Assembly: GCA_023657465.1 (NCBI GenBank)
Contig: JAGTJX010000002.1
Location: 124,001 to 188,000 of the forward strand
From: Lysobacteraceae bacterium
Lineage (GTDB): Bacteria > Bdellovibrionota > UBA1018 > JAGTJX01
Reading direction: 5' to 3'
Length of the DNA stretch: 64,000 nt
Positions 14,198 through 54,303 of this stretch are shown piece after piece. Positions within the stretch are counted from its first letter, which is position 1; each line of letters opens with the position of its first letter. Both the position numbers and the translations under genes were made by a program. The notes under the pieces are model-generated. The model was given only the letters and a program-made list of their open reading frames with translations. It had not been told where the DNA came from and ran no database searches.

Positions 14198-14207
14198 TTA
14201 GTGATAA

Positions 14208-14225
14208 TATACGCTAGGGCGTATA
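14208..14225. promoter_or_regulatory. hip operator O1
   Basis: A perfect dyad TATACG-N6-CGTATA with centre CTAGGG. It lies in the core of a longer perfect inverted repeat from 14201 to 14232 with 14-base arms (GTGATAATATACGC and its complement) around TAGG. It sits just before the hipB start codon and probably overlaps the -10 region on the minus strand. Binding by HipB is inferred from position and symmetry. Confidence 0.8.
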
Positions 14226-14235
14226 TTATCACTAT

Positions 14236-14253
14236 TATACTCTGTAGCGTATA
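14236..14253. promoter_or_regulatory. hip operator O2
   Basis: A near-perfect copy of the O1 dyad: TATACT-N6-CGTATA, with one mismatched arm position. Its centre is 28 bases from the centre of O1. Confidence 0.72.
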
Positions 14254-14263
14254 TTTTGTTTTT

Positions 14264-31073: not shown

Positions 31074-31076
31074 AAA

Positions 31077-31110
31077 AAAGCCCCGTGTTCAGTTAAGAAC
31101 ATAGGGCTTT
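31077..31110. terminator. Bidirectional intrinsic terminator after thyA
   Basis: A hairpin with outer arms AAAGCCC and GGGCTTT and inner arms TGTTC and GAACA around the loop AGTTAA, with one mismatch and one G-T wobble pair between the two. The A-run on the left serves as the U-tract on the minus strand; on the plus strand GGGCTTTCT follows. It separates thyA from the convergent regulator gene. Confidence 0.82.
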
Positions 31111-31130
31111 CTAGATTAATTTTCTGAACT

Positions 31131-33052: not shown

Positions 33053-33481
33053 GTGAATAAAATTATTTTTGGTGGAGTGATCTTAGTGCTATTGGCAGCA
33101 GGTTCAATTTGGGCTGCACCTCAGTATCCTCTGAAGTATTCTTGTGAATGCATCGATACAGGAATGGAATGCGGCGATGTCTACATGAATATGGAAGTAC
33201 TTGTTCGAAGCAATAAGAGTATGAAGTTCAGAATCACTGATGCCGAAGGTCATCTGTTTGCATCACTCGAATCTCTTCGTGATGTTACGAAGCCTACAAA
33301 AGGAAAAAATTTCAAACGTTTCTATCACAACAATAAGAAGTGGACGAAACCATTCCCGCATCTCTATGTAGAAGACGAAATTCTACGGGGTGGAAAATCA
33401 GGAACTGTGAAGATGCCCGAGTACAACGGTGAGGGCAGTCCTTACACTTGGGAATATGAGTGCGAGAAGCAAAAGAACTAG
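33053..33481 (+). CDS. Small exported protein, unknown
   Basis: A 142-residue protein starting with GTG after a G-rich ribosome site. Residues 1-22 form a signal peptide (NKIIFGGVILVLLAAGSIWA, then A-P-Q). The mature part has four Cys (CECIDTGMEC near residue 31 and one near the end in YECEKQKN), which may pair in the periplasm. No family was recognised. Its stop is followed immediately by the first inverted repeat. Confidence 0.75.
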   Translation: MNKIIFGGVILVLLAAGSIWAAPQYPLKYSCECIDTGMECGDVYMNMEVLVRSNKSMKFRITDAEGHLFASLESLRDVTKPTKGKNFKRFYHNNKKWTKPFPHLYVEDEILRGGKSGTVKMPEYNGEGSPYTWEYECEKQKN

Positions 33482-33588
33482 TTCTACCTGATATTATTTT
33501 AACCTTCTTTCGGTCGGGCTCCTGCCCTTTATTGGGTCGCATCACGCTCAATAAAACCTCAATCAGATTAAAATAATATCAGGTAGAA
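33482..33588. repeat. Long inverted repeat with 21-base perfect arms
   Basis: The left arm 33482-33502 and the right arm 33568-33588 are perfect reverse complements (core CTACCTGATATTATTTTAA). They enclose 65 bases holding a smaller GGGC-TCCT-GCCC hairpin and a TTTATTG...CAATAAA pair. The structure begins one base after the preceding stop codon. It could be a strong terminator, a processed RNA, a recombination site or a short non-autonomous mobile element. No reading frame lies inside. Confidence 0.85.
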
Positions 33589-33595
33589 ATACGAC

Positions 33596-33736
33596 GTTTA
33601 CAGGTTAGTCTGCTGTTTTTATCGTTTTATTTTTTTGAGATTGAGCGAAGTTTTTTTCAACAGGATGTGACAGAAAAAGAGGCAGGATGCCGAACTGAGT
33701 GAGAGCTTAAAAAAATAAAACGAAGAACCTGTAGAC
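33596..33736. repeat. Second, imperfect inverted repeat beside the DUF971 gene
   Basis: Outer arms GTTTACAGGTT (33596-33606) and AACCTGTAGAC (33726-33736) match at ten of eleven positions. Inner arms CGTTTTATTTTTTT (33623-33636) and its exact complement (33709-33722) are perfect over 14 bases. The left arm has about 16 bases between inner and outer parts and the right arm has three. It ends at the first base of the DUF971 stop codon, so it may terminate that transcript, but the size suggests an inserted element. Confidence 0.65.
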
Positions 33737-34068
33737 TACTGAATCTTTTTGCCGAGTTTCTCACAGAGCTCATACAGACGATCGAAGTGATACATTCCTG
33801 TCTGATGCTGGTCATTCCATGTGATCTGAAGAGCGTAGCGTCCTACAACTGTCGCTTTCGTAGGCTTGATGTCTGCAGAGACCGAGTCACGAGTGATCGT
33901 GCGTTGACCAGTGTGCTCGTCTACACATCCTGCACAAGGACAATGGAATCGGATCTCAGCATAAGGAACGCTGAAGGATACGCCATCATTCCAAGAGATA
34001 TGAGCCTCCCATTGATTGAGGGATTCAAAACGCGATGGAATCTTTATTGCTTGTGTGTCGCTTTGCAT
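33736..34068 (-). CDS. DUF971 domain protein (gamma-butyrobetaine hydroxylase-like N-terminal domain)
   Basis: A 110-residue DUF971 protein. The motif FHCPCAGCVDEHTGQ with three nearby Cys/His and VVGRYALQITWNDQHQTGMYHFDRLYELCEKL are typical. Proteins of this family are often linked with iron-sulfur cluster and Mrp proteins; the exact role is uncertain. The start overlaps the end of the upstream exported-protein gene by 25 bases, giving coupling. Confidence 0.88.
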   Translation of the reverse strand: MQSDTQAIKIPSRFESLNQWEAHISWNDGVSFSVPYAEIRFHCPCAGCVDEHTGQRTITRDSVSADIKPTKATVVGRYALQITWNDQHQTGMYHFDRLYELCEKLGKKIQ

Positions 34069-53759: not shown

Positions 53760-54273
53760 CTTCTTTGCTTAAACCAATTATTCTTTTTAGCGGGACAGAT
53801 CTTTCTGATATAAGTTCTCTGATCGCATTGAATACCACTTGAAATTGTCCGTCGTACTTTGATTCAAGATCTTTGATCCGTTTTTCAAACTCTTTGTTTG
53901 AATTTAAGACTTGTCTGAGCTTCACGAAGGTTCGCATGATATTCACTTTTACTTCGATCGCTCTGTCGCTTTTAAGGACTGCAGAGAGCATGGCAACACC
54001 TTGTTCTGTGAAAGCGAGTGGGGTTTTCTTCTGCCACCTCTACCAATGTTTGATATCGCAATTTGCGATATCAAACATGTAAACTCATGGATTTGTAAGC
54101 GGAAAAATAAAGTCTGGAGGGAACCTTTTCAGGTTTCGTCTGACCTGTTCATTGAGTCTCGTGGTGGGGACTTGGTAGAGTTCTGCTAGGTCGTAATCGA
54201 GCATGAATTTCTCTCCGCGGATCAGATAGATTTTGGATATTATGTCTGTAATAAAGTTCTCTGTTGTTTTCAT
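53671..54273 (-). pseudogene. ORF6N/KilA-N-type DNA-binding protein, broken
   Basis: A decayed gene of the ORF6N family, often found in phage and mobile islands. The N-terminal part is intact: [33 protein letters not shown], then TGA. The C-terminal part is intact in the same strand: LAFTEQGVAMLSAVLKSDRA, MRTFVKLRQVL and KYDGQFQVVFNAI. Between them the frame is disturbed: one frame still reads QIAISNIGRGGRRK, the expected conserved stretch, but a one-base loss in the following C run returns to the downstream frame. A perfect 33-base palindrome lies at the break (54046-54078). The ATG at 54273 is the likely original start. Confidence 0.82.
54046..54078. repeat. Perfect 33-base palindrome inside the broken ORF6N gene
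   Basis: Arms of 16 bases (ATGTTTGATATCGCAA and its complement) around a single T. The right-hand half on the minus strand codes the conserved QIAISN part of the family; the other half matches no coding expectation. It looks like an inverted copy made by template switching. Confidence 0.9.
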
Positions 54274-54303
54274 GTCTAGATTACAAAGCAAAAGCTGTGC
54301 CGG

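Follow-up and report, generated by a model that had tools for sequence, protein, structure and literature searches.

A long perfect hairpin, here called H1, in the 64-kb stretch of DNA that was analyzed (the window) probably belongs to a family of mobile hairpins, non-coding and non-autonomous, that is spread across a phylum and whose arms are built by inverted copying of flanking sequence. The evidence lies in a core that recurs at dispersed sites, in arms that are nearly perfect and mostly private to each site, in arm ends that coincide with stop codons, and in the manner in which the stems change.

Structure and neighborhood of H1

The original prediction described a perfect 21-base inverted repeat around a structured interior and proposed a small non-autonomous mobile element, a recombination site, or a structured RNA processed from the upstream message. 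The geometry was confirmed: the arms are reverse complements at 21 of 21 positions and enclose 65 nt, within which lie a GC hairpin (GGGC 33516-33519 with GCCC 33524-33527) and a second arm pair (TTTATTGGG 33528-33536 with CTCAATAAA 33547-33555). An inverted-repeat scan of the window ranked H1 first in strength, and sites resembling its arms (up to 3 mismatches) were found neither elsewhere in the 64-kb window nor in 100 shuffles. Its minimum free energy was −43.3 kcal/mol, compared with −15.9 for shuffled sequences (z = −9.5, 0 of 200 shuffles). Two details of the site were amended. H1 does follow a stop codon, but with zero bases between them instead of one, as TAG 33479-33481 directly abuts the repeat; and the absence of a reading frame inside is true for plausible genes only, since a mechanical 79-aa minus-strand ORF (33312-33551) overlaps H1. 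As predicted, no T-run of the terminator type was present 3' of the right arm.

The gap between H1 and the convergent gene is filled by a second copy, H2, in inverted orientation (Table 1). The 142-aa gene upstream of H1 had no Pfam match. One gene further upstream lies a small HNH endonuclease gene (PF14279/PF01844, 32664-32993). Elsewhere in the window, we noted a convergent gap at 31074-31130 that folds far above shuffles (z = −5.3) and is probably an ordinary terminator, an inverted repeat of 23 nt around a 4-nt loop (14206-14255), and a 544-nt convergent gap with a mild folding excess (53760-54303, z = −2.3).

Table 1. Coordinates of H1, H2, and the adjoining genes in the window
Feature	Position	Strand	Description
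Element copy H1	33482..33588	+	Hairpin; core conserved, arms private; R1 match 33481-33589, E 1.4e-22, H1 being among the copies used to build R1
H1 left arm (P1, 5' side)	33482..33502	+	Directly abuts TAG stop
H1 right arm (P1, 3' side)	33568..33588	+	Exact reverse complement of left arm
H1 P2 hairpin, CGGGCTCCTGCCCT	33515..33528	+	4-bp stem, TCCT loop; most conserved part of the family
H1 P3 stem-loop, ending in TCGCATCACGCT	33528..33555	+	Stem varies between copies by compensated pairs
Element copy H2	33600..33732	−	Inverted relative to H1; R1 match 33618-33727, minus strand, E 4.1e-9
H2 arms	33622-33639 / 33706-33723		18 nt, 94%
H2 outer arms	33600-33606 / 33726-33732		ACAGGTT / AACCTGT
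Upstream gene, 142 aa	33053..33481	+	Stop codon abuts H1
Convergent gene, GBBH-like_N domain (PF06155)	33736..34068	−	Stop 3 bases past outer H2 arm

A dispersed family with a conserved core and private arms

When the host genome was searched with positions 33470-33600, the strong matches elsewhere aligned to the interior and not to the arms. The search for further copies that had been proposed for H1 was therefore borne out for the interior, which recurs, but not for the perfect arms, which are private to the H1 locus. By its best TrpS match (67%), the host is related to MAGs of Bdellovibrionales/Oligoflexia. A covariance model built from an alignment of nine copies (R1) detected 13 loci at E < 0.001 in the 2.83-Mb host genome, H2 among them; at E up to 10 there were 17 rows, of which the extra four repeat loci already counted, read on the opposite strand. 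Inverted neighbors such as H1 and H2 occur in a second case, beside C2:440129. R1 matched 3 of 57 other genomes of the class (E up to 0.05); the core there is the same, and the arms differ. In the phylum as a whole, 7 of 368 genomes contain the exact pattern CTCCTGYCCT-N(12-42)-CGCWTCACGCTT, 23 times in all, and a reversed-pattern control gave none in the 368. With a threshold of E ≤ 0.01, a second covariance model (R2), built from these 23 copies, matched at least 50 of the 368; the R2 counts are lower bounds because at most 12 candidates were scored per genome, and the R1 and R2 searches both included the genomes that supplied their training copies. Within genera, the distribution of the exact pattern is patchy: G305 has four copies, and its genus mates G303, G304, and G306 have none.

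The family is distinct from convergent gaps in general. The idea that every such gap is a hairpin was rejected, as the window survey and a scan for long inverted repeats point instead to a discrete family. In that scan, which covered the window and 20 stretches (5 of the 20 picked for holding known copies), eight long inverted repeats were found compared with none in shuffles, and five of the eight belonged to the H1 family. No Rfam family reached the gathering threshold in the window. Nineteen loci returned two tRNAs only, the element family being absent from Rfam 15, and a search of nine loci relaxed to E up to 1 gave three matches, one to a tRNA and two of subthreshold score, none of them credible for the core. 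Spread by phages or plasmids was discarded after H1 found no match in phage and plasmid collections, and viral contigs held no match to the family. A literature search, which covered few subscription papers, found no description of this hairpin family. H1 apparently belongs to a mobile non-coding hairpin family without prior description.

Between copies, loops and junctions are conserved and the long stems differ; within a copy, the stems pair almost perfectly. The conserved core of about 80 nt consists of P2 with a UCCU-type loop, P3, an optional hairpin P3a, and a CGC[A/U]UCACGCUU loop, and arm length ranges from about 20 to more than 100 nt. In 31 of 41 copies, a copy's own left-right complementarity exceeded the best of 123 cross-copy left-right pairs, and in the other 10 this mismatched-arm maximum was not exceeded. 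Lenient extension of the outer arms drifted into coding sequence, and exact helices were used instead. The longest of these measured 53, 48, 36, 34, and 33 bp, and a helix of at least 8 bp was present in 55 of 57 copies, the remaining two being left out of the arm-end count below. The stretches taken for the truncated loci L207, L208, and L226 are off-center from the element and were left unused. Copies in the host genome have a second block and the inner stem in common and differ in their outer arms, and several carry nested arms of at least 100 nt per side, reaching nearly from stop to stop of two convergent genes. L228 has a core nearly identical to those of L229 and L230, with different arms and flanks. 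Three of the G305 copies have common arms of about 24-27 bp and the fourth retains the left arm, indicating that the hairpin can also move together with its arms.

Some copies had features of their own. L045 and L051 (G000:C1:466872 and 493419), which lie 26 kb apart, both contain, in an outer arm, a sequence close to ATACTTCACGTAGC; at L045, the complement of this sequence is found in the first codons of a downstream ORF, as if a captured flank had moved from one locus to another. At L049 (G000:C2:60638-60784), the P2 loop is broken by about 40 nt, resembling an insertion into the core, and L214 holds two P2 motifs of opposite orientation as a tight head-to-head pair (ACACGGACTCCTGTCC ... GGACAGGAGTCCGTGT). 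The left arms are pyrimidine-rich (T-A 402, A-T 254, C-G 253, G-C 154 in 41 copies).

Mobility of the element is supported by the site behind ndk (gene names such as this one were assigned by eye), where G287 carries a copy; in four of four relatives, G284, G285, G286, and G288, the same two genes are separated by a short, element-free gap. G284 and G286 hold family copies at other places. The ndk gaps are too diverged for the junction to be read, and thus no target duplication can be stated. A putative empty site for L194 was set aside, as the upstream gene is missing from G303, G304, and G306. With this lineage-specific insertion and a core that is multi-copy, dispersed, and patchy in the phylum, the small non-autonomous mobile element of the original prediction was upheld; a recombination site found no evidence in its favor. 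A single copy absent from other genomes, which had been named as the outcome favoring a terminator, is not what H1 proved to be. The element would presumably be moved by a mobilizing enzyme. Certain elements occupy the same site in different species, a persistence not explained by mobility alone.

Stem changes and placement at gene 3' ends

Of 440 cells in the alignment of 23 cores, 94.8% are paired. Core stems contain 125 double-change cells versus 2 one-sided cells, where shuffles give 39.6 double, and their covariation score is 0.670 versus 0.183 in shuffled alignments. RNA families under selection normally show many G-U pairs, and G-U intermediates are almost missing from these stems. Arm mismatches in 22 copies comprised 63 G.T and 53 A.C (61 and 52 without one mis-centered row, G006b, from a truncated locus), so that neither strand is clearly favored. 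L218 and L223, which occupy an orthologous site in genus g89, differ by seven pairs changed on both sides with Watson-Crick pairing kept and by one changed on one side; between L229 and L230 there are eight double changes, two one-sided changes, and one other. Paired changes at orthologous sites are the pattern expected if one arm is inversely copied onto the other. Double changes that bypass G-U, together with similar numbers of G.T and A.C, argue against ordinary RNA-level selection and for inverted copying of a flank.

Template switching, in the available text of Monttinen and Loytynoja (2022), is predicted to yield perfect stems from one event and instantaneous double changes, and its intrastrand form predicts enrichment of G-C and U-A (PMC8794818). 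Half of this asymmetry was observed in the H1 family, where U-A exceeds A-U (402:254) but C-G exceeds G-C (253:154).

Of 57 copies, classified with crude ORF calls of the kind also used in the arm-end count and in the survey of convergent gaps, 26 were convergent, 15 tandem sense, 11 tandem antisense, 4 divergent, and 1 undetermined. Tandem orientation was 15:11 (p 0.56), and a stop lay within 60 nt in seven tandem-sense versus no tandem-antisense copies. Arm ends were placed at stop codons above chance: 24 of the 66 that face a gene end within 400 nt fell between −15 and +12 nt of a stop, compared with 4% of displaced ends, and the other 42 lay away from stops. Arm helices take in the stop or last codons at L180 (CAAACGGTTGTAA), L183, C1_438, and C2_440b, and right-side helices reach them at C3_28 and C1_254. 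The stops of convergent genes are mirrored about the arm ends at C2_924 (2/2), C3_260 (2/2), and C1_438 (−5/−5 nt). Three tRNA-adjacent copies were tested for inverted tRNA pieces. Part of tRNA-Arg recurs in inverted form in the right flank of L231 (score 34 versus a maximum of 31 in 300 shuffles); behind other tRNA genes, L177 was suggestive (31 versus a shuffle maximum of 34) and L222 was at chance. That arms derive from gene ends in some copies is well supported.

A different short hairpin, of the form GGT..palindrome..GTAC[CA]TT, stands in the right flanks of L163, L165, L173, and L177 in G006, and a tRNA-like sequence comes after it; this may be a further class of repeat that is linked to tRNA genes. 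A tmRNA beside L163 was considered and dropped, as ARAGORN finds none.

We propose that the core of about 80 nt is the conserved, moving part, which settles at gene 3' ends. The arms lie mostly outside any fixed repeat and would be made, lengthened, and kept perfect by backward copying of one flank across the core. The copying step may most simply be replication template switching, that is, fold-back synthesis primed at the hairpin, and could continue until selection on the adjoining coding sequence or tRNA halts it. By such inverted copying, some gene ends would become giant hairpins, carried in any transcripts that cross them. Conservation of the core across the phylum suggests some selected or transposition function.

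Known systems and alternative explanations

Several described repeats resemble the H1 family in part. YPAL (RU-2) of Yersinia is a mobile, structured repeat of about 168 bp that is read with upstream genes; by the description available, it is one repeat family, whereas members of the H1 family have a core in common, with arms that mostly belong to one locus and can enter gene ends (PMC2229807). ERIC (RU-1) and other MITEs are dispersed hairpin repeats that are thought, in the same source as available, to affect mRNA stability (PMC2229807). The H1 family is likewise non-coding, multi-copy, and dispersed; MITEs are described by their terminal inverted repeats, but the termini of the H1 family are its variable part and are not conserved between copies, the shared arms of G305 aside. 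REP sequences and REPtrons (RAYT) are short palindromes scattered in intergenic DNA, described in the text at hand as 20-40 bp long, tagged with GTAG or CGTC, and frequently accompanied by a RAYT (PMC3733652); inspection by eye showed no such tags here. Template-switch hairpins are described, in the accessible part of the source, for microRNA and rRNA stems and not for one conserved mobile core (PMC8794818). Coding palindromes in the mitochondria of Nematomorpha are perfect inverted repeats of up to 284 bp that also enter coding sequence; they differ in being mitochondrial and, in the portion of the report drawn on, are described without a conserved core or dispersal (PMC6649704).

An intrinsic terminator, a short GC-rich stem with a T-run after it, was rejected for H1, as no T-run follows position 33588; the elements L179 and L182 each have a distinct GC-rich hairpin plus T-run behind them (by eye). 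Integron attC sites carry RYYYAAC / GTTRRRY boxes at the hairpin base, and inspection of both strands of H1 by eye found no such boxes. A CsrA sponge, for which several GGA loops per transcript were looked for, appears doubtful: csrA is present, but the loops fit inconsistently, as the P2 loop has its GGA on the minus strand and the second loop has GGA in some copies only (by eye).

The chief competing explanation is a family of structured 3'-UTR RNAs, acting as transcript end, stabilizer, or bidirectional transcription barrier, whose arms would be complementary through selection on the RNA. It would account for the strong covariation of the core stems, for the location at gene 3' ends with 26 of 57 copies convergent, for the nearby stops in tandem-sense copies alone, and for retention of the element at an orthologous site. 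The stems nevertheless evolve unlike those usually selected in RNA, one-sided (G-U) changes being almost nil beside the double ones; overall tandem orientation is close to even, arms of more than 50 bp are beyond any ordinary need, and the family is patchily distributed. The similar G.T and A.C counts also speak against it, although the same is expected if both strands are selected. We therefore retain this part of the original prediction as an unlikely explanation of the whole, while noting that the RNA and mobile-hairpin readings may be partly true together.

The arms might instead be old target sequence, if a mobile element inserted preferentially into the loops of existing palindromes such as terminator stems or REP-like repeats. 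The targets of YPAL span or adjoin dyad symmetry, as far as the source at hand describes them (PMC2229807). Element-free relatives do have terminator hairpins behind ndk, but with stems of about 12 bp (by eye), unlike the arms in G287; arms of tens to more than 100 nt that contain last codons, and once a tRNA fragment, are no terminators, and double changes go on after insertion. Such an origin appears quite improbable. Some library methods produce inverted chimeras as a known artifact, yet an assembly chimera or a chance fold deserves almost no credence given a core present in at least 50 of 368 genomes, including the single-contig G190, G193, and G196, and given the placement of arm ends at stop codons. 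Our preferred reading remains a mobile hairpin with arms made by inverted flank copying. We tentatively entertain its extension to a palindrome-building element, in which the core moves to gene ends, one flank is copied backwards over the other, and the loops alone are heritable, with all stems, those of the core included, rewritten at each site and over time.

How long perfect stems originate and are kept up without broken intermediates is an open question, and the authors of the template-switch work call the evidence for stem maintenance circumstantial in the text available (PMC8794818). The H1 family places very large hairpins at gene ends, where they may affect the transcripts that carry them. 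Because the same core stands at many unrelated sites and also at orthologous sites, it becomes possible to measure how fast inverted copying proceeds, in which direction, and within what limits.
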